DNA of 64,000 nucleotides from Desulfofustis limnaeus (lineage in GTDB: Bacteria; Desulfobacterota; Desulfobulbia; Desulfobulbales; Desulfocapsaceae): NCBI RefSeq assembly GCF_023169885.1, contig NZ_AP025516.1:1302001-1366000 (forward strand). The letters are read 5' to 3'. A program made the translations under genes and the position numbers. How positions within the stretch are numbered: position 1 is the first letter of the stretch; each line of letters opens with the position of its first letter. The notes below the pieces were generated by a model that saw only the letters and a program-made list of their open reading frames with translations, ran no database searches and was not told the origin of the DNA. Below are positions 1 through 15,589 of this stretch, piece after piece.

Positions 1-737
1 ACGGGGCCGGGGCCTTTTCCCAGCAGCAGGTTTTGACGATCGAGCTGGAGGAGCGGCGGCAGCGGGACCGGCTGCTCGATGCGCTGGAGCAGCGGGATGC
101 AGCTCGGGTCGAGTTGGCTCGTTTGGTCGGCGCTGAGCCGTCGCGCCGGGACCTCCCGGAGGGGGTGCCGCAACTGCCGCAGGTCGAACCACTCGAACAG
201 CTGCAGCAAACCCTTGGCGACCACCCAGCGGTACAGGCGCTCCAAGAGCGGGTGCGGGCGGCAAGCCAGGAGGCGGAGCTGGCCGGCCGCGCCTACAACG
301 GCTTCATGGTTGATCTGCTCTACAGCCGCAACAACCTGGAACAAGACCGGGTCGGACTGATGTTCAGCGTACCGCTGCCCCTCGCCCCCGGTCAGCGCCA
401 GGATCGCCGCGCCGCCGCCGGAGAACATCAGGCGGAATCGATGCGCCTGGAACGCGACAACCTCCTGCGCACCCTCATGAGCGACACGGAGATCCTGCAG
501 CAACGCTTGGATCGTCTCGGTCAGAGGCTGAAACTATCGGCCGACGCCATCCTGCCCCATGCGGAACTGGTAACGGAGGCGGTCACCGCCGGCTACCAGT
601 ACAGTACCGATGATTTCTTCAGCGTCCTGCGCTCGGTGCTGCTCCAACTCGAAAGCCGGCTCAGCCACGCCCGGCTACAGGCCGATCACGCCGGAACCCA
701 GGCGCAATTGCTCTACTATCAGGTCCACGAGTCATGA
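1..737 (+). CDS. cusC: CusC/TolC-type outer membrane efflux factor, 3' part
   Basis: This is the C-terminal part of an outer-membrane channel of a tripartite metal efflux system; the reading frame is open to the left edge, so the start lies outside the window. The visible 235 or so residues are almost entirely amphipathic, coiled-coil-like helix with two short strand segments (around FMVDLLYSRNN and GLMFSVPLPLAPG), which is the pattern of the second repeat of TolC-like proteins (OEP family). The stop overlaps the start of the adaptor gene in an ATGA, so the two are translationally coupled. The exact subtype rests on the Cus-type neighbours rather than on this fragment alone. Confidence 0.85.
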   Translation, partial: GAGAFSQQQVLTIELEERRQRDRLLDALEQRDAARVELARLVGAEPSRRDLPEGVPQLPQVEPLEQLQQTLGDHPAVQALQERVRAASQEAELAGRAYNGFMVDLLYSRNNLEQDRVGLMFSVPLPLAPGQRQDRRAAAGEHQAESMRLERDNLLRTLMSDTEILQQRLDRLGQRLKLSADAILPHAELVTEAVTAGYQYSTDDFFSVLRSVLLQLESRLSHARLQADHAGTQAQLLYYQVHES

Positions 738-2224
738 AAACGGCAATGCTGGCCGTGCTGGCCTTCGTTCTCGGCGGTCTGGCCGCCTGGTGGTTCGTTC
801 CGGGACCGGCATCACCTCCCGGCTCCGGGCCCGATCAAACGGTGCACCAGCCGGAGCGTCAGGTCCTCTACTATCGTCATCCCCACAGCCCGCAGATCAC
901 CTCCGATAAACCGCTGCAGGACGAGATGGGGATGGACTACATCCCCATCTATGCCGATGACGATGGCGGTGGCGGCAGCGCCATCCGTATCGCTCCCGAG
1001 ATGACTCAGAACCTTGGCGTGCGCACGGCCGTGGCCCGACGGGAGACGGTGACGCCGACCATCGAGGCCTTTGCCGTGGTCGATTACAATGAACAGCGCC
1101 TGAGCCATGTCCATGTGCGCGCCGAAGGCTGGGTAGAGGAGCTGGCGGTGCGGTCGCTGGGAGAACGGGTGCGGCAGGGCGAGCTGCTCTTCACCTGGTA
1201 TTCGCCGCCACTGGTAAACGCCCAGGAGGAATACCTGCGGACGCTTGCCGGCGGTTCGGAACGGGTGCGCGAGGCATCGCGGGAGCGGCTCGTGGCGCTG
1301 GGCGTGGCACCTGCCACCATCGCCGCGCTGCCGGCCCGAGGGCGGCCGTTTCAGCAGTTGCCGGTCTATGCCCCGGCGGACGGGGTGGTCACCCAGATCG
1401 GCGTGCGCGACGGCATGTATATCATGCCGGCCCTGGACCTGCTGACCCTAGCCGACTTGTCCTCCGTCTGGATCTATGTGGATCTGTTCGAGCACCAGGC
1501 CCGCCAGGTGACAGTCGGCCAACAGGCAACACTGTCGCTGGTCGGATTCCCCGGGGAGCCGCTGACCGGCAGCGTCGAATTCCTCTCTCCACAGCTCGAT
1601 CCCCAGACGCGTACGGTCCGGGCCCGGCTCCGTTTTCCTAACGAGCAGGAACAGCTGAAGCCGAACCTGTACGGTCGCGCCAAGATCATCCTGCCGGCCC
1701 GCCAAGACGTCCTGCTGGTGCCCCGGCAGGCACTGATCAGCAGCGGCGACCGGCAGCGGGTGGTGGTGGCCCGGGAGGACGGCCGGTTCGCCCCGGCGGA
1801 GGTGAGCAGCGGCGCCGAATACGGGGACCTGGTGGAGATTGTCGACGGGCTGACCGAGGGTGATCGGGTCGTCGTCTCGGCCCAGTTCCTGCTCGATTCC
1901 GAGGCGAGCCTGCGGGCCGCCTTCACCCGGATGGAACCGCTCGAGGCCGCCAATGGTGAAGCTGCCGAAGTGGCGCCCCAGGTAGTCTGGAGCAACGGCA
2001 CCTATCACGGCCCCGGCCGCAAGCAAGGCACCATCTCGCTGTCTCACGAACCCATCGCCGAATTCGGCTGGCCGGCCATGAAAATGGACCTGCCGCTGGC
2101 CCCCGGCGTCACCGCCGATCAAGTGTCTCCCGGCAGCCCGATCCGCTTTGAGTTGGAGCGTCTTGACGAGATCACCTATCACGTTCTGGCCATCGAGACG
2201 CAGCCGGGCGGAGATCAGCCATGA
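734..2224 (+). CDS. cusB: CusB-type RND periplasmic adaptor with C-terminal CusF-like domain
   Basis: Membrane-fusion protein of 496 residues that would link the inner-membrane pump to the outer-membrane channel and hand metal to the pump. It has one N-terminal membrane anchor (about 4-24), a heavy-metal-binding YYRHPHSP...MGMDYIPIY segment (44-73) as in CusB/CzcB proteins, then the barrel-sandwich and beta-barrel adaptor core. Residues about 418-489 form an extra domain with a SHEPIAEFGWPAMKMDL motif, matching the His/Trp/Met/Met copper site of CusF. E. coli CusB lacks such a fused domain. The gene overlaps its neighbours on both sides by 4 bp, so a single transcript is likely. Confidence 0.92.
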   Translation: MKTAMLAVLAFVLGGLAAWWFVPGPASPPGSGPDQTVHQPERQVLYYRHPHSPQITSDKPLQDEMGMDYIPIYADDDGGGGSAIRIAPEMTQNLGVRTAVARRETVTPTIEAFAVVDYNEQRLSHVHVRAEGWVEELAVRSLGERVRQGELLFTWYSPPLVNAQEEYLRTLAGGSERVREASRERLVALGVAPATIAALPARGRPFQQLPVYAPADGVVTQIGVRDGMYIMPALDLLTLADLSSVWIYVDLFEHQARQVTVGQQATLSLVGFPGEPLTGSVEFLSPQLDPQTRTVRARLRFPNEQEQLKPNLYGRAKIILPARQDVLLVPRQALISSGDRQRVVVAREDGRFAPAEVSSGAEYGDLVEIVDGLTEGDRVVVSAQFLLDSEASLRAAFTRMEPLEAANGEAAEVAPQVVWSNGTYHGPGRKQGTISLSHEPIAEFGWPAMKMDLPLAPGVTADQVSPGSPIRFELERLDEITYHVLAIETQPGGDQP

Positions 2225-5200
2225 TCGCCGGAATTATCCGCTGGTCCGTCGCCAACCGCGTCCTGGTCCTGATGGCCATGCTGCTGACCACGGCCTGGGG
2301 GGTATACGCCCTGCAGCGGACGCCGCTCGACGCCATTCCCGACCTGTCTGATGTGCAGGTGATCATCAAGACCTCGTACCCCGGCCAGGCGCCCCAGGTG
2401 GTTGAGCAGCAGGTGACCTACCCGTTGTCCAGCGCCCTGCTGGCCGTGCCGAAAACCATCGCGGTACGCGGCTATTCCATGTTCGGCGACTCCTACATCT
2501 ATGTAATTTTCGAGGAGGGAACCGACCTCTACTGGGCTCGGTCGCGGGTCCTTGAATATCTCAACCAAGTCTCGGCCAACCTGCCGGATGGGGCGGTTCC
2601 GTCGCTTGGTCCGGACGCCACCGGGGTGGGCTGGGTGTATCAATATGCCCTGGTGGATCGCAGCGGCGGCCACGATCTCGGCCAGCTGCGCGCCATCCAG
2701 GACTGGTTCTTGAAGTACGAGCTGCAGACGGTGGCCGGGGTGTCCGAGGTGGCCACGGTGGGCGGCATGGTCCGCCAGTACCAGATCGTCGTCCAGCCGG
2801 AAAGGCTGCGCGCCTACGACCTGGGGGTCGACCAGATCGCCCGGGCGGTAAGCCGTGCCAACCAGGAGACGGGTGGTTCGTCCATCGAACTGGCCGAAGC
2901 GGAGTACATGATCCGGGCCAAAGGCTACCTGAACAGCATCGACCAGCTGCGCCAGATCCCGTTGAAACTGGGAGACAACGGAGTGCCGGTGCTGCTCGGT
3001 GAAGTAGCGGAGATCGACCGGGGCCCCCAGATGCGCCGGGGTATCGCCGAACTGGACGGAGAAGGGGAGGTGACCGGCGGCATTGTCGTCATGCGTTCCG
3101 GCGAGAACGCCCTGGCGGTAATCGAGCGGGTCAAGGCCAAGCTCGACGAGATACGTCCCGGCCTGCCCGACGGCGTCGAGATCGTCGAGACCTACGATCG
3201 CTCCGGGGTCATCCAGCGGGCTGTGGACAACCTCCAGCAGACGGTGATCAAGGAACTGCTCGTGGTGGTCGCCGTTTGTGCCCTGTTTCTGATGCACCTG
3301 CGTTCGTCGCTGGTGATCGGGATCAGTCTGCCGCTGGGGGTATTGATCTCGTTTATCATCATGGAGCGGCAGGGGATCAACGCCAATATCATGTCGCTCG
3401 GCGGCATCGCGCTGGCCATCGGCGCCATGGTCGACGCCTCGATCGTCATGGTGGAAAATGTGCACAAGCACCTGGAGCGTCAGGAAGCGGCTCAGCGCGA
3501 CCGCTGGCAGGTGGTGACCGAGGCCGCGGTGGAGGTGGGGCCGCCGCTCTTTTTCGCCCTGCTCATCATCACCGTCAGCTTCCTGCCGGTCTTCACCCTG
3601 GAGGCCCAGGAAGGCCGGCTCTTCGCCCCGCTCGCCTTCACCAAGACCTACGCCATGGCGGCGGCGGCCGGACTGGCGGTGACGCTGGTGCCAGTGCTCA
3701 TGGGCTATTTTATCCGCGGCCGGATTGCCGCCGAACAGCGCAACCCGCTCAACCGGCTGCTGATCGCCCTCTACCGGCCGCTGGTCAACGCCGCCCTGCG
3801 CTTTCCCAAAGGCGTCGTGGTACTGGCGCTGGTGGCCGCGGCCAGCATCTGGTACCCGCTCGACCGGATCGGCTCGGAATTCATGCCGGAGCTGGACGAG
3901 GGAGACCTGCTCTACATGCCCACCACGCTGCCCGGGCTGTCGCCGGGCAAGGCCGCGGAACTGCTGCAGCAGACCGACCGGCTGATCCGCTCGGTGCCGG
4001 AGGTCAAGCGGGTATTCGGTAAGGCGGGGCGGGCCGAGACGGCCACCGATCCAGCGCCGCTGACCATGCTGGAGACGACCATCCAACTCCACCCGCGTGA
4101 GCAGTGGCGGGCCGGCATGACCACGGCTCGGATCATCGAGGAGTTGGACCGTATCGTCAAACTGCCGGGTGTCACCAATGCCTGGGTCATGCCGATCCGC
4201 ACCCGCATCGACATGCTGGCCACCGGTATCCGTACGCCGGTCGGCATTAAAGTGGCCGGCCCGGATCTGGCGGTCATCGAAACCATCGGCCGAGACATCG
4301 AGCAGTCGGTCAAGGGCCTGCCCGGCACCTTGTCGGCCTATTCAGAGCGAGTAACCGGCGGCCGCTATATCGATGTGGATATCGATCGCGTCGCCGCGGC
4401 GCGCTACGGGCTTGCCATTGCCGAGGTGCACGAAGTGGTGCGGACCGCCATCGGCGGCATGAACATCGGCCAGACCATCGAGGGACTGGAACGTTACCCG
4501 ATCAATCTGCGTTACCCGCGCGACTGGCGTGACACGCCGGAAAAGCTGCGGCAGTTGCCGCTGGCCACCCCGAGCGGGGTGTGGGTGACCCTGGAGCAGA
4601 TCGCGGCGGTGCAGATCGTCGACGGGCCGCCGATGATCCGCAGCGAGAACGCCCGGCTCAGCGGCTGGACCTACGTGGACATCCAAGGCCGCGACCTGGG
4701 TGGCTATGTCCGGGAGGCGCGGGACGCGGTGCAGCAAGCCGTCACGCTGCCGCCCGGTTACTCGATCAGCTGGTCCGGCCAATACGAATACCTGGAGCGG
4801 GCCAATCAGCGTCTGCAACTAGTGGTGCCGCTGACCCTGGCCATCATTTTTCTGCTGCTCTATTTGAGTTTTCGCCGGATCGGCGAAACCATGCTGATCA
4901 TGCTCACCCTGCCGCTGTCGCTGGTTGGCGGCTTCTGGTATCTGCACTGGCTCGGCTACAACCTCTCGGTCGCCACCGGCGTCGGCTTCATCGCCCTGGC
5001 CGGGGTGGCGGCCGAGACCGGCATCGTTATGCTCGTCTACCTGGACCAGGCCTGGCAGAAACGGCTGACGACGGCGCATAGCCAGCAGCGCCGTCCCACC
5101 GTTGAGGAGTTGCGCGACGCGTTGATCGAAGGGGCGCTGTTGCGGGTGCGCCCGAAAATCATGACGGTCGGTACGGTCATCGTCGGCCTGCTGCCGATCA

Positions 5201-5352
5201 TGTTCAGCGAAGGCACCGGCGCCGAGGTGATGCGCCGGATCGCCGCGCCGATGCTCGGTGGCATGGTCAGTGCCACCGTGTTAACCCTGGTGGTCATCCC
5301 GGCCATCTATTTCATCTGGAAACAATACACCGTGAAGGGGATTCACCTATGA
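2221..5352 (+). CDS. cusA: Heavy-metal efflux RND pump, CusA type
   Basis: Proton-driven inner-membrane pump of 1043 residues, the usual length of the HME-RND family. It shows the N-terminal membrane helix followed by the PLDAIPDLSDVQV segment, the TM4 motif LAIGAMVDASIVMVEN (near residue 400) characteristic of the monovalent-metal CusA branch rather than the DFG motif of CzcA, and the late LAGVAAETGIVMLVYLDQ segment. Substrate is therefore probably Cu(I)/Ag(I). It is coupled by ATGA overlaps to the adaptor upstream and to the CusF-like gene downstream. Substrate choice is inferred from motif class and operon partners. Confidence 0.95.
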   Translation: MIAGIIRWSVANRVLVLMAMLLTTAWGVYALQRTPLDAIPDLSDVQVIIKTSYPGQAPQVVEQQVTYPLSSALLAVPKTIAVRGYSMFGDSYIYVIFEEGTDLYWARSRVLEYLNQVSANLPDGAVPSLGPDATGVGWVYQYALVDRSGGHDLGQLRAIQDWFLKYELQTVAGVSEVATVGGMVRQYQIVVQPERLRAYDLGVDQIARAVSRANQETGGSSIELAEAEYMIRAKGYLNSIDQLRQIPLKLGDNGVPVLLGEVAEIDRGPQMRRGIAELDGEGEVTGGIVVMRSGENALAVIERVKAKLDEIRPGLPDGVEIVETYDRSGVIQRAVDNLQQTVIKELLVVVAVCALFLMHLRSSLVIGISLPLGVLISFIIMERQGINANIMSLGGIALAIGAMVDASIVMVENVHKHLERQEAAQRDRWQVVTEAAVEVGPPLFFALLIITVSFLPVFTLEAQEGRLFAPLAFTKTYAMAAAAGLAVTLVPVLMGYFIRGRIAAEQRNPLNRLLIALYRPLVNAALRFPKGVVVLALVAAASIWYPLDRIGSEFMPELDEGDLLYMPTTLPGLSPGKAAELLQQTDRLIRSVPEVKRVFGKAGRAETATDPAPLTMLETTIQLHPREQWRAGMTTARIIEELDRIVKLPGVTNAWVMPIRTRIDMLATGIRTPVGIKVAGPDLAVIETIGRDIEQSVKGLPGTLSAYSERVTGGRYIDVDIDRVAAARYGLAIAEVHEVVRTAIGGMNIGQTIEGLERYPINLRYPRDWRDTPEKLRQLPLATPSGVWVTLEQIAAVQIVDGPPMIRSENARLSGWTYVDIQGRDLGGYVREARDAVQQAVTLPPGYSISWSGQYEYLERANQRLQLVVPLTLAIIFLLLYLSFRRIGETMLIMLTLPLSLVGGFWYLHWLGYNLSVATGVGFIALAGVAAETGIVMLVYLDQAWQKRLTTAHSQQRRPTVEELRDALIEGALLRVRPKIMTVGTVIVGLLPIMFSEGTGAEVMRRIAAPMLGGMVSATVLTLVVIPAIYFIWKQYTVKGIHL

Positions 5353-7210: not shown

Positions 7211-7282
7211 TCCTTTTCTCCTGATGCTCGCATTGTGCCGCAGTCACGGAGGCAGACGTCGACCGGGGGGCCTGCGTCATAC

Positions 7283-8143
7283 ATGTATCAGGATCTGTTG
7301 CAATACATCTTTTCCGGACTGACCACCGGGGCCATCTATTCGTTGATTGCGCTCGGTTTCTGCGTGGTCAACAACACCATGGGCATCGTCAATTTCGTGC
7401 AGGTGGACTTCGTCTCCCTGGGCGGCATGCTGATGTTCTCCGCCCTGTTCGCCCTTGGTCTGCCGATGGTCCCGGGGCTGCTGTTCGCCGTCGCCGGGGT
7501 GGCCCTGGCGGCGATGGTGGTGGAGCGGTTCGGGCTGCGCCCGGCACGGACGGACAACCACCTGGTGCTGATCTTCATCACCGTCGGCCTGTCCATCATC
7601 CTGCGCGGCGTCATCAAGCTGGTCTGGGGCAAAAATCGGATGGCCCTGCCGCCGCTGACCCCCGATACCCCGATCACCATCTTCGGGGCCTCGGTGCTGC
7701 CTCAGGCGTTGTGGATCCTGCTGCTGACCGTGGTGGTCATCGGGCTGCTCACCTTCTTTTTCTATAAGACCTCTCTTGGCCTGTGCATGCGGGCGGTGGC
7801 GTCGAATCATCGGGCGGCGGCCGTGGTCGGCATCCCGGCCGGCCGGGTGCGCTTGACCAGTTACGCCATCGCCGGCGCGCTCGGCGGTCTGGCCGGCGTG
7901 CTGGTGACGCCGATCACCACCCTCAGTTACGATGTCGGCGTTCTGCTCGGCCTCAAGGGCTTTGCCGCCGCCATCCTCGGCGGTTTCGGCTCCTTTCCCG
8001 GAGCCATTGTCGGTGGCCTCGGGCTCGGCCTGCTGGAGTCGCTGTCGGCAGGGTATATCTCCAGCGCCTACAAGGACGTGGTCGCCTTCGTGGTGCTGTT
8101 GCTGGTGCTTTTCGTCAGGCCCACCGGCCTGTTCGGTAAGTGA
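7283..8143 (+). CDS. livH: Branched-chain/aromatic amino acid ABC permease, LivH type
   Basis: Inner-membrane permease of 286 residues with about eight hydrophobic helices and the family opening GLTTGAIYSLIALGF plus the late cytoplasmic EAA-like region with GLKGFAAAILGGFGSFPGA. It would form the translocation channel with LivM. I choose ATG 7283 because the protein then begins MYQDLLQYIFSG as LivH proteins do; frame upstream to 7235 adds non-conserved residues. It is the first gene of the operon downstream of the TrpR-type operator. Confidence 0.93.
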   Translation: MYQDLLQYIFSGLTTGAIYSLIALGFCVVNNTMGIVNFVQVDFVSLGGMLMFSALFALGLPMVPGLLFAVAGVALAAMVVERFGLRPARTDNHLVLIFITVGLSIILRGVIKLVWGKNRMALPPLTPDTPITIFGASVLPQALWILLLTVVVIGLLTFFFYKTSLGLCMRAVASNHRAAAVVGIPAGRVRLTSYAIAGALGGLAGVLVTPITTLSYDVGVLLGLKGFAAAILGGFGSFPGAIVGGLGLGLLESLSAGYISSAYKDVVAFVVLLLVLFVRPTGLFGK

Positions 8144-8181
8144 TTGTTTCGTTTAACATCTTTTAAGGAATAGTCTGATTC

Positions 8182-10011
8182 ATGAGTGACACTGCCATCC
8201 ACTTGGTCATGGGCAACGAGGCCATCGGCGACGGGCTGTTGGAAGCCGGCTGCCAGGTGGTCGCCGCCTACCCGGGGACCCCGTCCACCGAAATCATGCA
8301 GTCGATCATCACCGCCAAAGAGCGGGCCGGCGGGCCGCTCCACCTGGAGTGGTCGGTCAACGAGAAAATCGCCTTCGAGGTGGCCCTGGCGGCCAGCTAT
8401 ACCGGTAAACGGTCGGCGGCCATCATGAAGCAGGTGGGCCTCAATGTCGCCGCCGATCCCTTCATGCGCACTGCTTATCTGGGAACGGTCGGCGGCATGG
8501 TGACGGTGGTGGCCGACGATCCGGGGCCGCACAGCTCGCAGACGGAGCAGGACACCCGGCTGTTCTGTCTGCAGGGGCGGGTGCCGGTGCTCGACCCGTC
8601 CAGCCCGGCCGAAGCCAAGGCGATGATCGGTCCGGCCTACGCGCTCTCCGAGAAATACCGGCGTAACATCGTACTCCGTCCCACCACCCGGATCAGCCAC
8701 TCCCGGCAGAATGTGGCCCTCGGCGCCGTGCCGGTGATGAACCGGCCGTCCTCGTTTACTCCCGATCCCGGTCGCTGGTGCGCCACCCCCGCTTTCCTGC
8801 CGGGCCTGCACGGGGCGCTGAACAAGGACCTGGAGGCCATCTCCCGCGAACCGGAGTGGCAGCCCCGGCTGACGCCCGGTGACGGTAGCCGTCCCGGCAC
8901 GGCCTTGGTCGCCTCCGGCATCGTCTATGCCCACCTGGTGGACCTGCTGGACGAACTGGGCCTGGCCGGGACGATCGATCTCTACCAGGTGCTCATGCCC
9001 TATCCGTTGAGCCCGACCTTCATTGAGCGGCTGCGGGCCGATTACCAGCGGTTGCTGATCCTCGAGGAGACCTATCCGGTGATCGAGCTGCAGCTCGCCC
9101 ATCCGGGGGCCGTGGGCAAACAGGGCGGGGCGGTGCCGCGGGTCGGCGAGCTGACGCCGGATGCGGTGCATGCGGTGTTGGCCGATTTTCTCCATCTGGC
9201 AAAGCCGCGCCAGACCGGGCCGGCGCAACGGGGCCAGCGGCCGTCGCTCTGTCCCGGGTGCCCCCACCGGGCCGCCTTCTACACCATCAAGCAGACCTTT
9301 CCCGACGGCATCTATCCCTCCGATATCGGCTGTTACACGCTGGGCATGAACCTGGGGGCGGTGCATACCGTCCATTGCATGGGCGCCTGCATCAGCCAGG
9401 GAGCTGGTTTTTACCAGGCCTACCGGCTGGACGGCGGCGACTTCCCGACGGTGGTGGTGACCATCGGCGACTCCACCTTCTTCCACGCCGGCATCCCTGC
9501 CCTGATCAACGCGGTACTGCAGCGGGCCCGGATCATCGTCGTCATCCTCGACAACGCCACGACGGCCATGACCGGCGGCCAGCCGGTGCCGCACCTGGGG
9601 GTCACCGCCGGCGGCCAGCCGACCACAGCGATCGCCATCGAGCCGCTGGTCCGCGCCGCCGGTGTCGAATTTCTCGAGGTCTGCGACCCGTACGACTCCC
9701 GAGCCCTGACCAGGGTGCTCAAACAGGCCGACGCCCATATCCGTAGCGATGACGGCTCGGTGGCGGTGGTCATCTCCCGGCACCCCTGCGTCATGGATCC
9801 GGCGGCCAAAAAAATACGCTCGCCGGCCACCGCCATTATCACCGACGAGTGTATCGGCTGCGGCACCTGTGTCAGTGAGTATGAATGCCCGGCCTTGTCG
9901 CTCAACGAGGAGGAGGGGCGAGCGGTGATCGATGGGGATCGGTGCATCGGTTGCGGCACCTGTGTCGACGTCTGCCCGGTCCAGGCCATCGAGGTGAAGG
10001 AGCTATCATGA
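8182..10011 (+). CDS. iorA: Indolepyruvate ferredoxin oxidoreductase, alpha subunit
   Basis: Thiamine-diphosphate enzyme of 609 residues that oxidatively decarboxylates aryl pyruvates (from Trp, Phe, Tyr transamination) to aryl-acetyl-CoA with reduction of ferredoxin. The N-terminal part is the pyrimidine-binding domain (AAYPGTPSTEIMQ), the middle has the thiamine-binding GDSTFFHAGIPALINAV loop with ILDN, and the C-terminus carries two [4Fe-4S] motifs, CIGCGTCVSEYECP and CIGCGTCVDVCP. AAGGA precedes the ATG. It overlaps iorB by 4 bp. Placement inside a transporter operon under a TrpR-like site supports aromatic amino acid use. Confidence 0.96.
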   Translation: MSDTAIHLVMGNEAIGDGLLEAGCQVVAAYPGTPSTEIMQSIITAKERAGGPLHLEWSVNEKIAFEVALAASYTGKRSAAIMKQVGLNVAADPFMRTAYLGTVGGMVTVVADDPGPHSSQTEQDTRLFCLQGRVPVLDPSSPAEAKAMIGPAYALSEKYRRNIVLRPTTRISHSRQNVALGAVPVMNRPSSFTPDPGRWCATPAFLPGLHGALNKDLEAISREPEWQPRLTPGDGSRPGTALVASGIVYAHLVDLLDELGLAGTIDLYQVLMPYPLSPTFIERLRADYQRLLILEETYPVIELQLAHPGAVGKQGGAVPRVGELTPDAVHAVLADFLHLAKPRQTGPAQRGQRPSLCPGCPHRAAFYTIKQTFPDGIYPSDIGCYTLGMNLGAVHTVHCMGACISQGAGFYQAYRLDGGDFPTVVVTIGDSTFFHAGIPALINAVLQRARIIVVILDNATTAMTGGQPVPHLGVTAGGQPTTAIAIEPLVRAAGVEFLEVCDPYDSRALTRVLKQADAHIRSDDGSVAVVISRHPCVMDPAAKKIRSPATAIITDECIGCGTCVSEYECPALSLNEEEGRAVIDGDRCIGCGTCVDVCPVQAIEVKELS

Positions 10012-10508
10012 AACAGCAGATTATCGTCAGCGGCATCGGCGGTCAGGGCGCCCTTTTTCTGACCCGAGTCATCGCCCAGGCGGCCGTTGATCTGGACATC
10101 CCGGTCATGACCTCGGAGACCCACGGCATGGCCCAACGCGGCGGCACCGTGATCTCCACCATCAAGGTCGGCCCGTTCGCCTCGCCGCTCATTCGCACCG
10201 GTCAGGCCGATGTGGCCCTGCTGCTCTGGGAGGATAACCTGGGGGTGCACCGGCCGCTGGTCAAGGACGACGGTACGCTGGTGATCAACGCCGAAGGGGC
10301 CGGTCCCGGCCTGCGCATCGATGCCTCGGGGATCGCCAGGAAGCTGGGCAACGCCGTGCTCTCCAACCTGGTGCTGCTCGGCTGCGCGGTGCGCCATCAG
10401 GCGCTGTTCTGCGACCAGCAGGCCTGCGCCGCGGCGATCCGGAAACTGGCTCCGGCACGCTTTGTCGAGCAGAATCTCCAAGCCTTTTACGAGGGATTGA
10501 ACGGGTGA
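10008..10508 (+). CDS. iorB: Indolepyruvate ferredoxin oxidoreductase, beta subunit
   Basis: The 166-residue partner of IorA, of the pyruvate/ketoisovalerate oxidoreductase gamma-domain family, starting MKQQIIVSGIGGQGALFL with the GIGGQG nucleotide-like loop and the TSETHGMAQRGGTV segment typical of IorB. It has no iron-sulphur motif, as expected. The ATG at 10008 overlaps the iorA stop; the frame is open further upstream but inside iorA coding sequence. It ends by overlapping the GTG of livM. Confidence 0.95.
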   Translation: MKQQIIVSGIGGQGALFLTRVIAQAAVDLDIPVMTSETHGMAQRGGTVISTIKVGPFASPLIRTGQADVALLLWEDNLGVHRPLVKDDGTLVINAEGAGPGLRIDASGIARKLGNAVLSNLVLLGCAVRHQALFCDQQACAAAIRKLAPARFVEQNLQAFYEGLNG

Positions 10509-11509
10509 GCATCGGCCGCCGCGATCGATTGTCCTATTTCGTATCGCTGCACCGCACCGGGCTGCTGGTGGCTGTGCTGACGGCGGTGCTGGCGCTTTAT
10601 CCGCTGGTTGAGAAGAACCCGTATACCCTCGGTCTGACCAACCTGATCGCCATCAACGCCATCGTCGTGCTCGGCCTCAACCTGTTCATCGGCTACGCCG
10701 GGCAGATCTCACTCGGCCACGCCGCTTTTTTCGGGCTCGGCGCCTACGGCTCGGCCATCGCCACCGTTACCATAGGATTGCCCCCGTGGCCGGCGATGGT
10801 GCTGGTCGCCCTGCTGGTCGGCCTAGTTGCGCTGGTCATCGGCATTCCGGTGCTGCGCCTGAGTGGCCACTACCTGGCCATGGCCACCCTCGGCTTCAAT
10901 TTCGTGATCCATACCGTCCTGCTGGAATGGCACGAGGTAACCGGTGGGCCGAGCGGCTTTGCCGGTATCCCGTCGCTCGGTTTCGGCAAGTTCCTGTTCG
11001 ACAGCGAGATTCGCCTGCATTACCTGCTCTGGGGCGTGACCCTGCTCTGTCTGCTGCTTAGCCTCAATCTGGTGCGCAGCGGCGTCGGGCGCGGCCTGGC
11101 GGCGCTGGCCGGGGATGAGACCGCCGCCGCCGCCCTGGGGGTCGATACCAAGCGGGCCAAGATCAAGGTCTTCGTGCTCTCCGCCGTCTACGCCTCGTTG
11201 GCCGGCAGTCTGTTCGCCCACTGCTATAGCTACGTCAGCCCCGATTCGTTTGGTATCTTCACCTCGGCCGATCTGGTGATCATGGTCGTCGTCGGCGGCA
11301 TGGGCTCGATCTGGGGATCGCTCTTCGGCGCCGGCCTGATCACGCTGCTGCCGGAGTGGGTCGATCTGTTCGACACCTACAAGGACTTCGTGCATGGCGG
11401 CATCCTCGTGCTGGTGCTGATGTTTTTGCCGCAGGGGCTGGTCACCGGCCTGGTGGATCTGATCAGGATCCGGATCGCTCTGGGGAGGCGGAAGCATGCT
11501 GCATCTTGA
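10505..11509 (+). CDS. livM: Branched-chain/aromatic amino acid ABC permease, LivM type
   Basis: Second permease of the LIV transporter, 334 residues, with the LFIGYAGQISLGHAAFFGLGA motif region and the GDETAAAALGVDTKRAKIKVF cytoplasmic loop that contacts the ATPases. It starts at GTG 10505, overlapping the iorB stop, and its end overlaps livG by 14 bp. The order livH-iorA-iorB-livM shows the enzyme genes are embedded in the transporter operon rather than appended. Confidence 0.94.
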   Translation: MSIGRRDRLSYFVSLHRTGLLVAVLTAVLALYPLVEKNPYTLGLTNLIAINAIVVLGLNLFIGYAGQISLGHAAFFGLGAYGSAIATVTIGLPPWPAMVLVALLVGLVALVIGIPVLRLSGHYLAMATLGFNFVIHTVLLEWHEVTGGPSGFAGIPSLGFGKFLFDSEIRLHYLLWGVTLLCLLLSLNLVRSGVGRGLAALAGDETAAAALGVDTKRAKIKVFVLSAVYASLAGSLFAHCYSYVSPDSFGIFTSADLVIMVVVGGMGSIWGSLFGAGLITLLPEWVDLFDTYKDFVHGGILVLVLMFLPQGLVTGLVDLIRIRIALGRRKHAAS

Positions 11510-12260
11510 CGGGGTCAGCCGGCACTTCGGCGGTCTGCCGGCCCTTGATCGGGTCTCCTTCGCCATCCCCCCGGGCCAGGTCACGGCGCTGATCGGGCCC
11601 AACGGCGCCGGCAAGAGCACCCTGATCAATTGTATCACCGGTGTCGATACGCCGACGGCCGGCACCGTTGTCTTTCAGGGGCGGCCCATCACCGGTCTGC
11701 CCGCCCATCGCATCAGCCGCCTCGGCATCGCCCGCACCTTCCAAAATCTGCGGCTGTTCCCGCGCATCAGCGTGTTGGAAAATGTGCTCTGCGGACTGAC
11801 CAGGGAAGGGGGGCAGTCGATGCTGATGGCCATGCTGCGCCTCCCCTATCTGCGGCACCGCGAGCGGCTGCTGAAGCTGCGGGCCATGGAAGCGCTCGAT
11901 CGCTTCCACCTCAGCGACAAGGCCTCCTGGCCGGCGGCCATCCTGGCCTACGGCGACAAGAAGCGGGTCGAGTTGGCCCGGGCCACGGTGGGCAATCCGC
12001 ACCTGCTGCTGCTCGACGAGCCGGTGGCCGGGCTAAACGGTGAAGAGACGGCGGCGGTCGGCGAGCAACTGCACCGGCTGCGGGCCGCCGGCCATACCAT
12101 CCTGCTGGTGGAGCATGACATGGACCTGGTGATGCGGCTGGCCGATCGGGTGGTGGTCCTGGACAGCGGCCGCTGCATCGCCGTCGGCACCCCCGACGAG
12201 GTGCGCAGCAATCCGCTCGTGCTCGAGGCCTATCTCGGGCAGATGGAGGCCACCGCCTGA
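11496..12260 (+). CDS. livG: LIV ABC transporter ATPase, LivG type
   Basis: Cytoplasmic ATPase of 254 residues with Walker A GPNGAGKS, the LivG-specific RTFQNLRLFPRISVLENV Q-loop region, a non-canonical signature stretch AYGDKKRVELARA in place of LSGGQ, Walker B LLLLDEP and the switch His in LLVEHDMDLVM. These features and length are normal for LivG. It overlaps livM upstream and the livF-paaK frame by one base downstream (TGATG). Confidence 0.95.
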   Translation: MLHLDGVSRHFGGLPALDRVSFAIPPGQVTALIGPNGAGKSTLINCITGVDTPTAGTVVFQGRPITGLPAHRISRLGIARTFQNLRLFPRISVLENVLCGLTREGGQSMLMAMLRLPYLRHRERLLKLRAMEALDRFHLSDKASWPAAILAYGDKKRVELARATVGNPHLLLLDEPVAGLNGEETAAVGEQLHRLRAAGHTILLVEHDMDLVMRLADRVVVLDSGRCIAVGTPDEVRSNPLVLEAYLGQMEATA

Positions 12261-14344
12261 TGCTGACGATCCGCCATCTGACCGCCCATTACGGCGCCGC
12301 CCAGGCCCTGTTCGGGGTCGACCTGGAGGTCGGCCGGGGCCAGACCGTCGCCCTCGTCGGTGCCAACGGTGCCGGCAAGAGCACGCTGCTGCGCTGCGTC
12401 ATGGGCTTGGTGAAACCGACCGGCGGCACCATTGAACTTGAGGGGGAAGACGTCACGCACCGCTCCCCGGCGCACCTGGTGCGCCGGGGACTGGCCCTGT
12501 CGCCGGAGGGGCGTGAGGTGTTTGCCGAGCTGACGGTCCTGGAAAACCTGGAGCTGGGCGCCATCCCCTTGTCGCTCGGAACAGCCGAAAAGGCCCGGAG
12601 GATCGACGGGGTGTTCAGCCGTTTTCCGAAACTGGCCGAACGCAGGAAACAGGCGGCCGGCACCCTGTCCGGCGGCGAGCAGCAGATGCTGGCCATGGGC
12701 CGGGCCCTGATGGCCGGGCCGAAGTTGCTGCTGCTCGACGAGCCGAGCCTCGGGCTGGCACCGTTGATCACCGATGAGATCTTCGCCATCATCCACCAAT
12801 TGGCGCGGTCCGGCACCACCATCCTGCTGGTGGAACAGAATGCGGCCCGGGCCTTGTCGGCCTCCGACAAGGCCTATCTGCTGGCCAACGGCACCATCGT
12901 CGAGCAGGGTCGGAGCAGCGACCTGCTCAACGACGCCGCCCTGCGCGCTGCCTTTCTCGGCGCTTCCGCAGAAAACCCGGCAGCCAGCCGTCTCGGCGGC
13001 GCCGGTTTGACCAATATACGCTTGGAGAAACCCGATATGCATAAACTGGATTTCATGCCGCACTTCAAAGACGTTGGCGAGTTGCGGGCCCACCAGCAGT
13101 GCGGGTTGTGCTGGACCGTCCGGCACGCCTACGAGGGGTCGGCCCACTACCGCCGGAAATTCGAAGAGGCCGGGATCTCCCCGGCCGACATCAAGGATCT
13201 GGCCGACCTGCAGAAGCTGCCGTTCACCACCGCCGACGACCTGCGCGACGGCTACCCGTTTCCGCTGCGCGCCGTTCCCTACGAGCAGCTGGTGCGCATC
13301 CATGCCAGTTCCGGGACCACCGGCAAGCGCAAGGTGCTCTGTTATACCCAGAAAGATCTGGACGACTGGGAATATTTCTTCGCCCGCTGTTATCAGATGG
13401 CCGGCGTCACGCCGTTGGACCGGGTGCAGATCGCCGTCGGTTACGGTGTCTGGACCGCCGGTGTCGGTTTCCAGGCGGGCTGCGAGAAGATCGGGGCGCT
13501 GGCGGTGCCGCTCGGCCCCGGCAATATCGACATGCACATCCAGTTCCTGCTCGATTTCCAGTCCACCGTCTTTTGTTCGACGGCCTCCATGGCGCTGCTG
13601 ATGGCCGAGGAGATCCACCGGCGCGCCATCGCCGACAAGATCGCCGTCAAGAAGATCATCTACGGCTCGGAACGCTCCAGCCGCTCGATGCGCAGCAAGA
13701 TTTCCGAACTGTTCGGCGGTGCCGAGCTGTTCGACATCACCGGCCTGACCGAGCTGTACGGTCCGGGGACCGGCATCGAGTGCTCCGATCACGACTGCAT
13801 CCATTACTGGAGCGATTACTACCTGCTCGAGATCCTCGACCCCGAGACACTGCAGCCGCTGCCCGACGGCGAGTGGGGGGAGATGGTGGTGACCTCGCTG
13901 TGCAAGGAGGGGGCGCCGCTCATCCGCTATCGCACCCGGGACATCACCCGGATCATTCCCGGACCCTGCACCTGCGGCTCCATCATGCCGCGCCATTCGC
14001 GCATCCGCGGCCGTTCCGACGACACCATCAAATTCCGTGGGGTCAACATCTATCCGAGCAGCATCGACACCATTCTCTCGGCCATACCCGGCCTCGGATC
14101 GGAATACCAGATCCACCTGCGCCGAGATGAGGCCGGCCGCGACCATATGCGGCTGGTCATCGAACGGGCCGAAGGGGTGGACGACAAACGGAGCGCCGAG
14201 TTGGCCCATGAGGCCACCTATCAGATCAAGAAACAGCAATTGGTCTCGGCCGATGTGGAACTGGTCGACTACGGCCGGCTGCCTCGATCGGAGCGCAAGA
14301 GTAAACGGGTGTTTGACAACCGTATTCAAGACGAGATCGTCTAA
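12260..14344 (+). CDS. LivF ATPase fused in frame to PaaK-type aryl-acetate CoA ligase
   Basis: One open frame of 694 residues holds two complete proteins. Residues 1-235 are LivF: Walker A GANGAGKS, signature LSGGEQQMLAMGRAL, Walker B LLLLDEPSLGLA. After a linker of about 25 residues with no stop codon, residues about 260-694 are an AMP-forming phenylacetate-CoA ligase: ASSGTTGKRK phosphate loop near 350, TGLTELYGPG, a CTCG metal-binding-like pair and the C-terminal lid RGRSDDTIKFRGVNIYPS. The ligase part (435 residues) equals normal PaaK length. It would activate aryl-acetates, the product class of IorAB. Either a true fusion, or two proteins through an internal start at 13037; a sequencing error at the junction is possible. 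Confidence 0.88.
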   Translation: MLTIRHLTAHYGAAQALFGVDLEVGRGQTVALVGANGAGKSTLLRCVMGLVKPTGGTIELEGEDVTHRSPAHLVRRGLALSPEGREVFAELTVLENLELGAIPLSLGTAEKARRIDGVFSRFPKLAERRKQAAGTLSGGEQQMLAMGRALMAGPKLLLLDEPSLGLAPLITDEIFAIIHQLARSGTTILLVEQNAARALSASDKAYLLANGTIVEQGRSSDLLNDAALRAAFLGASAENPAASRLGGAGLTNIRLEKPDMHKLDFMPHFKDVGELRAHQQCGLCWTVRHAYEGSAHYRRKFEEAGISPADIKDLADLQKLPFTTADDLRDGYPFPLRAVPYEQLVRIHASSGTTGKRKVLCYTQKDLDDWEYFFARCYQMAGVTPLDRVQIAVGYGVWTAGVGFQAGCEKIGALAVPLGPGNIDMHIQFLLDFQSTVFCSTASMALLMAEEIHRRAIADKIAVKKIIYGSERSSRSMRSKISELFGGAELFDITGLTELYGPGTGIECSDHDCIHYWSDYYLLEILDPETLQPLPDGEWGEMVVTSLCKEGAPLIRYRTRDITRIIPGPCTCGSIMPRHSRIRGRSDDTIKFRGVNIYPSSIDTILSAIPGLGSEYQIHLRRDEAGRDHMRLVIERAEGVDDKRSAELAHEATYQIKKQQLVSADVELVDYGRLPRSERKSKRVFDNRIQDEIV
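13024..13039 (+). promoter_or_regulatory. Possible internal ribosome binding site for the PaaK part
   Basis: GGAG at 13024-13027 lies 9 bp before an in-frame ATG at 13037, which would give a ligase starting MHKLDFMPHFKDVGEL, exactly where PaaK homology begins. This would release a separate ligase from the fused frame. Confidence 0.45.
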
Positions 14345-14434
14345 CGAGTAGTGATACCACCTTTGGGACCAGCTACCGGTCGGATCACCGGCAGGCCGAC
14401 GGAGCCGGTCGCACAACCGAGAAGAGGAGCCATT

Positions 14435-15589
14435 ATGATGAGAACCGTATACGCAAGTCTGGTGTGTCTGCTGCTGGCCGTTGCCCCGGCGGCAGCCGAG
14501 GAAGTGATCAAGCTGGGGGCGCTGTTCGACCTGTCCGGCCGGGCGGCCTTTATCGGCACGCCCACCAAGCTGGTCGCCGAAATGGTAGTGGAGAAGATCA
14601 ACGCCGAGGGCGGTATCAACGGCAAGAAGATCGAACTGGTCATCGCCGATACCGAGGCCGACCCGGCCAAGACCGCCTCCATCGTCAAGAAATTCATCTA
14701 CAAGGACAACGTGGTGGCGATCATTGGGCCGACCCTGACCGATACCGGCATGAACGTCAAGAAGGTGGTGGATGAGGGCAAAACGCCGATCTTCATGACG
14801 GTCGGCGGCGATCCGGTGATCATGGGCGGCAAGTACGGCCCGTTCGAGTGGGTGTTCAAGTCGCCGCAACGCTCGAGCACCGCTGTCGAGCGGTTGTTCA
14901 TCTACCTGCAGGAGAAAGGGCTTACCAAAGTGGCCCTATTGTCGGCGGCCGATGGTTTCGGCAAGGACGGCGAGCACTGGATGAACGAATTGGGCCCGAA
15001 ATACGGGATCGAGATCATCGCCCGAGAGTCCTTCGGGACCCGCGACACCGACATGACCGCCCAGCTCACCAAGGTGAAGAACAGCAACCCGCAGGCGATC
15101 ATCGCCTGGACCATCGGGCCGGCCGGCTCGATCATCGCCAAGAACAAGGTGCAACTGGGCATCGACCTGCCCTTGTTCCAATGCCACGGACTGCCTGACC
15201 CGAAATACGTGGAGCTGGCCGGCCCGGCCAGCGAAGGCGATCGGATGCCGTCCACCAAGCTGATGGTGGCCGACGAATTGCCCGACAACGACCCGCAGAA
15301 GCCGGTGGTCCAGGAATTCATCCGGCTCTACCGGGAGAAGGGATATGACCAGCAGTTCCCGATCAACACCCACTCCGGCTACGCCTGGGACGCCATCATG
15401 ATGGTCGCCAACGCCATCAAACAGGTGGGCACCGACAAGGCGGCCCTGCGTGACGCCATTGAGGCCACCACCGGCTACGTCGGCGTATCCGGCATCTATA
15501 ACATCACCCCCGAGGACCACAACGGCCTCGGCGTCGACTCGATGGTCATGGTGCAGGTAAAAAACGGCGCCTTCACCCTCGCGGAATAG
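14435..15589 (+). CDS. livJ: LIV-type periplasmic amino acid-binding protein
   Basis: Secreted solute-binding protein of 384 residues, type I periplasmic fold (ANF receptor/Peripla_BP_6). The signal peptide ends near APAAAEE; the mature protein begins VIKLGALFDLSGRAAFIG and has the typical EKINAEGGINGKKIELV segment. The start at ATG 14435 has AGGAG 5 bp upstream; earlier in-frame codons from 14351 lack one. It is the last operon gene and is followed by a strong terminator. The associated enzymes suggest aromatic rather than aliphatic ligands. Confidence 0.93.
   Translation: MMRTVYASLVCLLLAVAPAAAEEVIKLGALFDLSGRAAFIGTPTKLVAEMVVEKINAEGGINGKKIELVIADTEADPAKTASIVKKFIYKDNVVAIIGPTLTDTGMNVKKVVDEGKTPIFMTVGGDPVIMGGKYGPFEWVFKSPQRSSTAVERLFIYLQEKGLTKVALLSAADGFGKDGEHWMNELGPKYGIEIIARESFGTRDTDMTAQLTKVKNSNPQAIIAWTIGPAGSIIAKNKVQLGIDLPLFQCHGLPDPKYVELAGPASEGDRMPSTKLMVADELPDNDPQKPVVQEFIRLYREKGYDQQFPINTHSGYAWDAIMMVANAIKQVGTDKAALRDAIEATTGYVGVSGIYNITPEDHNGLGVDSMVMVQVKNGAFTLAE

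Follow-up and report, generated by a model that had tools for sequence, protein, structure and literature searches.

In Desulfofustis limnaeus, a gene for a LivF-type transporter ATPase runs into a gene for a PaaK-type CoA ligase without an intervening stop codon. The locus raises two questions: is the fusion real, and what might an ABC importer of the LivHMGF family, which is best known for amino acids, do with a ligase joined to its own ATPase? We analysed the gene within a window of 64,000 nucleotides, the whole stretch of DNA under study, and compared it with relatives from the same family, class and phylum. Coordinates are window positions unless the genome is named.

A LivF-type ATPase and a PaaK-type ligase in one reading frame

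The open reading frame at 12260-14344 on the plus strand is a single frame of 694 residues, closed by the stop codon at 14342-14344 and free of internal stops. Its parts are as follows:

12260..14344, plus strand, fused livF::paaK gene, 694 residues; stop-free in 29 distinct copies including this one
12260..12964, plus strand, LivF-type ATPase domain, residues 1-235; Walker A, signature and Walker B positions invariant
12965..13036, plus strand, linker of 24 residues (236-259) with a conserved core at about 242-259
13037..14341, plus strand, PaaK-type ligase domain, residues 260-694; SSGTTGKRK at 350-358 and C-terminal Lys680

Pfam places ABC_tran at residues 19-163 of the 694-residue protein (109 bits against a gathering score of 25), AMP-binding at 333-545 (43 against 29.9 bits) and AMP-binding_C_2 at 594-688 (88.1 against 25), identifying the halves as a LivF-type ABC ATPase and a PaaK-type ligase. 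Among solved structures related by sequence, 1ji0, a LivF-type ATPase of the branched-chain or hydrophobic amino acid importers, matches residues 2-235 over its whole chain, and the PaaK phenylacetate-CoA ligase 2y4o aligns with residues 273-688 (E 3.4e-98). Because these two relatives cover 2-235 and 273-688, both partners are whole and the linker is defined as residues 236-259, close to the length of about 25 residues in the initial annotation. Unlike 1ji0, the fused LivF bears a linker and a ligase, and its partner LivK resembles binders of aromatic acids. The ligase half shares the SSGTTGK motif and the C-terminal Lys with 2y4o, 2y27 and 4r1l; however, those chains of 436-443 residues are ligase only, whereas here the ligase follows a transporter ATPase as the C-terminal half of one protein.

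The residues G34, N36-K40, S137-Q142 and D160-E161, which make up Walker A, the LSGGEQ signature and Walker B, are invariant in 29 of 29 copies, as is the ligase P-loop SSGTTGK. Lys680 is present in at least 90% of copies and aligns with the Lys of 2y4o at the catalytic position of PaaK-type ligases. The fused protein scored 243.8 bits with the LivF equivalog NF008626 (cut-off 441), for which reason we keep the name at LivF-type, and 398.8 bits with the PaaK phenylacetate-CoA ligase equivalog TIGR02155 (cut-off 646.3). All seven operon proteins stay below the cut-off of their best NCBIfam family, and type names, which commit to no substrate, are used throughout.

One explanation for the uninterrupted frame is a sequencing or assembly error that deleted a stop. 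The initial annotation had proposed comparing close relatives for a stop codon. In this comparison neither a stop nor a frameshift interrupted any of the 29 distinct copies, and the linker was conserved. We found no point in support of an error, its probability is negligible and we count it as refuted. The gene is a real fusion, as first annotated, and is predicted to encode a bifunctional ABC-importer ATPase. Its parts were already known; their arrangement is new. A literature search for a LivF-ligase fusion found none, most subscription papers being outside its reach.

The AF2 model of the fused protein was poor (mean pLDDT 67.3, linker below 50, pTM 0.42) and gave neither a usable domain arrangement nor readable linker contacts. 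Its structural match list was filled by ABC ATPases and covers the LivF half, not the ligase half; within it, 1ji0 fitted with a Z-score of 32.8 and 50% identity.

Distribution of the fusion

Full-length, stop-free matches occur in 8 of 93 genomes of the family, representing 4 of 18 genera, in 13 of 257 genomes of the class and, among the matches listed, in at least 16 of 395 sampled genomes of the phylum; the three samples overlap and have genome G000 in common. We collected 29 distinct fused copies, from 28 genomes and one further locus (L060), with the genomes falling into eight family codes (f1, f6, f13, f21, f56, f74, f95 and f100). Loci L058 and L059 were counted as copies of G052 and G524, and the copies of G228 and G562, which are truncated by a few terminal residues where their contigs end, were included. 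Two pieces at contig ends in G484 and a fragment at a contig end in G092 are probable further copies and were left out of the count. Identity to the window copy ranges over 65-88% among the other 28.

The 42 class genomes with a match at E 1e-110 comprise 13 with the fusion, 28 with unfused neighbours and one, G092, with a contig-end fragment. The 28 unfused pairs are 40-44% identical, with at least one stop in each. When 19 relatives were searched at E 1e-200 with a profile of all 29 copies, 3 of them gave the fusion. The fusion is widespread in many families of the phylum, and its patchy distribution means that loss or transfer of the fusion has occurred.

Conservation of the linker

Over the 29 copies, the majority residue accounts on average for a fraction of 0.937 at residues 243-259, compared with 0.789 for LivF residues 1-235, 0.690 for residues 260-285 and 0.843 for residues 286-694. 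The 16-residue window 244-259 ranks 47 of 679 for conservation, so other windows inside the domains are equally conserved. Pooled dN/dS over residues 242-258 in all 29 rows was 0.061, against 0.183 for LivF and 0.114 for the ligase, values that are rough, with synonymous sites near saturation. Normalised codon entropy in the linker is 0.697 and that over all scored positions is 0.705. Because codon choice in the linker is ordinary, the constraint acts on the peptide; constraint at the RNA or codon level was not seen, the entropy being at background.

The motif appears to be confined to fused genes. It was absent from the ends of the unfused syntenic LivF proteins of L193 and L200, a recognisable version is kept in the most divergent fused copy (L152), and a search of the loci below L138 outside the fused set returned a single match, L058 of the cultured relative Desulforhopalus sp. 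IMCC35007, itself a known fused copy. These comparisons indicate that the linker is a fusion-specific conserved peptide, not a free spacer, and it offers a marker for the fusion family. That it might act as a docking or signalling element coupling the ATPase cycle to the ligase, the importer passing its substrate directly to the attached enzyme with import and activation in one machine, is a possibility that we regard as unlikely.

A putative internal start

The initial annotation had also pointed to an internal start at the end of the linker from which free ligase could be made:

13024..13039, plus strand, putative internal start; GGAG at 13024-13027 and in-frame ATG at 13037-13039 (Met260)

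Both elements are where they had been placed. GGAG is present in 22 of 29 copies, and codon 260 is ATG in 23 rows and TTG in 4 (27 of 29); L148 has an ATG one codon earlier and L152 has neither. The mean Shine-Dalgarno match is 3.97, against 3.38 expected from the conserved peptide and the codon use of each gene, with P of 0.17 or more in every row (the rows are not independent). The strength of the site is not above chance given peptide and codon use, and a selected start is not supported on this ground; initiation here is possible. These counts, together with a free ligase (L062) that starts near residue 260, would suit a gene with two products, the fusion and a free ligase released through the start at 13037 or by cleavage in the conserved linker. 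Such a dual output is nevertheless distinctly improbable, given a site no stronger than peptide and codon use predict, a copy (L152) with no start and the ordinary codon entropy of the linker.

Phylogeny of the two halves

A quick tree of the LivF domain unites all 29 fused rows in a single clade (SH-aLRT 99). The 62 LivF rows compared with them are the 60 best-scoring of 105 others with at least 44% identity plus two unfused syntenic rows. The ligase tree was built from rows with at least 55% identity, copies being entered once and the rows of ten chosen loci serving as outgroup. Here the fused rows form one clade (support 100/98) together with five free ligases (L061, L062, L154, L155 and L157), which in the best tree are nested inside the fused group, so that the tether can be dispensable. 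Without L070, a long open frame that is not fused, the fused label needs two changes on this tree. L070 was also dropped before the AU test, in which a single clade of all 29 fused ligase rows was not rejected (p-AU 0.371). Two separate fusion events were set aside as an explanation in view of this value and of the divergent linker of L152, which is recognisably the same.

A LivM relative above 50% identity is absent from G412, G540 and G501, three genomes with nested free ligases, and no LivF match was found in the stretches around L061 and L062. The unfused syntenic relatives L193 (G307) and L200 (G302) read livF, stop, paaK and then livK. They have similar gene kinds and a similar neighbourhood to the fused operon, but differ in the stop between livF and paaK and in the absent linker motif.

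Fused genes outside the operon

In genomes G580, G597 and G441 more than 5 kb upstream of the fused gene is without livG, and a livM-livG operon lies elsewhere, followed by more than 8 kb without a LivF match (E 1e-8); in G580 another ABC ATPase, 29% identical to LivG, lies downstream of that operon. The same pattern is seen with short flanks (1.6-4.3 kb) in G524 and G543, and in G262, also with short flanks, where livG was not seen after livM. A contig break makes G114 uninformative. Judged from this gene order, the fused gene is clearly out of the operon in the first three genomes and probably in two or three more. The detached fused protein probably serves as LivF for the operon it left; the partner of that operon may also be another LivF paralog elsewhere in the genome. 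In these genomes the fusion persists after detachment, with no co-transcription to account for it.

Detachment bears on the proposal that the fusion arose by loss of a stop and was kept for assembly or stoichiometry only, with an active ligase gaining nothing at the transporter. Because livF and paaK adjoin in unfused operons the fusion would be an easy step, and the nesting of free ligases among the fused ones agrees with the proposal. We consider it improbable, however, since the linker core is more constrained than either domain, the fusion is retained where the gene sits away from the operon and eight family codes carry it.

The operon and its likely substrate

The window operon has the order livH-iorA-iorB-livM-livG-livF::paaK-livK, all on the plus strand from about 7235 to 15589. 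The initial annotation had assigned IorAB to the same operon as the fusion, and iorA and iorB indeed lie between livH and livM. The remaining genes are:

7235..8143, plus strand, livH-type permease (BPD_transp_2); seen close to the fused gene in 15 of 28 context loci, with contig ends truncating several of the others
8182..10011, plus strand, iorA-type indolepyruvate ferredoxin oxidoreductase alpha (TIGR03336 615.8 bits, below the cut-off of 650.9)
10008..10508, plus strand, iorB-type beta subunit (PF01558; NF004916 184.2 bits against a cut-off of 227), start set at the Met of MKQQ
10505..11509, plus strand, livM-type permease (BPD_transp_2)
11496..12260, plus strand, livG-type ATPase, with its TGA overlapping the ATG of livF::paaK
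14438..15589, plus strand, livK-type periplasmic binding protein, aromatic-acid-binder-like

Of 28 context loci, 16 have an IorA match next to the fused gene. A scan for promoters and terminators gave a result no better than shuffled sequence.

The binding protein LivK was modelled with confidence (mean pLDDT 93.0, pTM 0.89), and its ten best solved entries, all binding proteins, tie at Z-scores of 45.8-46.6; they stand for about five distinct proteins, as several share a sequence or align alike. Eight of the ten titles name Rhodopseudomonas palustris and one, that of 3uk0, its RPD_1889; four name a ligand: p-coumarate (two), 3-phenylpyruvic acid and caffeic acid. Leucine-type binders reach at best 42.8-43.3, and the 4-hydroxybenzoate and vanillate binders, at 39-40, fall below them. 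This order points to a phenylpropanoid-like acid but draws no general line between aromatic and aliphatic ligands. By sequence, the best solved matches are 3sg0 and 4dqd, whose QTHG aligns with QCHG of LivK, presumably at the site of the amino-group-binding glutamate in leucine-binding proteins. Although identities are 22-25% and the Z-scores of the two kinds of binder lie about 3 apart, LivK appears to prefer aromatic acids, and the transporter more probably handles these than amino acids of the leucine type.

These results can be set against a scheme in which the importer takes up aromatic amino acids, IorAB oxidises their products to arylacetyl-CoA and the ligase runs in reverse, making ATP and arylacetate. 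The scheme would account for the IorA matches beside the fused gene, and leucine-type binders fit LivK well too. The top LivK matches are, however, binders of aromatic acids, and a ligase running in reverse would need no place at the importer; we find the scheme doubtful.

Prephenate dehydratase is present in 12 of 12 fused genomes examined, so they do not depend on salvage for Phe. TIGR03200, a family of ring-cleavage hydrolases, exceeds its cut-off in 2 of the 12 and not in this genome, and for this reason we do not claim a ring-degradation pathway.

A proposed aryl-acid importer with a tethered ligase

The reading towards which we lean, by a narrow balance, is that of an aryl-acid importer whose ligase is tethered to its ATPase and traps the substrate as a CoA thioester. 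An aromatic carboxylic acid would be bound by LivK and imported by LivHM, LivG and LivF. The fusion would place the ligase at the cytoplasmic side of the transporter, where the acid could be converted at once to arylacetyl-CoA with no back-leak, a vectorial thioesterification suggested by the architecture. IorAB would then connect arylacetyl-CoA with arylpyruvate, working either reductively, by carboxylation on the way to aromatic amino acids, or oxidatively. A purely oxidative route from amino acids would need no importer-side ligase, because IorAB makes the CoA ester itself; a ligase beside the importer makes sense if it is the free acid that enters. Two points weaken the arylacetate version. 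If arylpyruvate were imported, as in 4dqd, it would be a better fit for IorAB than for the ligase; and the cluster of G530 (L192) reads livHM-livG-livF::paaK with no IorAB match in the stretch seen.

The nearest working analogy is vectorial acylation, carried out by FadD and by the peroxisomal ABC transporter with acyl-CoA synthetases. There, as in the proposed system, uptake of a lipophilic acid is coupled to CoA activation; the ligase is a separate partner in those cases, whereas here it would form one polypeptide with the ATPase. Import-activation coupling for lipophilic acids elsewhere likewise rests on separate proteins. In Methanococcus, IorAB and a ligase together incorporate aryl acids. 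For Geobacter, a regulation table places iorAB-paaK under tryptophan (PMC2700814); iorAB adjoins paaK there as here, but no transporter fusion appears in that passage of the paper. If the tether works as proposed, these genes would offer a natural system, simple to handle genetically, for testing whether a ligase held at the exit of an ABC importer is of benefit to it. The proposal also suggests that some LivKHMGF-IorAB-PaaK clusters, easily taken for branched-chain amino acid systems, handle aromatic acids.

Related clusters and neighbouring genes

The genome of the window, a single contig of 4,232,141 bases, also has an unfused cluster at genome positions 1028922-1036868, in which two PaaK-type genes lie around a LivF-type gene. 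It contains similar gene kinds, yet they are only 41-47% identical to their counterparts in the fused operon. Upstream of the G530 cluster, locus L192 has two more PaaK-type stretches (oriented positions 3-2426). At L194 (G327, oriented positions 8770-10896), within an iorAB-livHM cluster, a PaaK-type gene directly follows livG, and no LivF match separates the two. Operons of the type iorAB-livM-livG, with no LivF match in the flanks seen, were observed at L218, L220, L221, L222 and L224/L225 (family code f21). In the window, a 1043-residue open reading frame at 2221-5352, which by eye resembles an RND efflux pump for heavy metals, stops about 1.9 kb short of livH.
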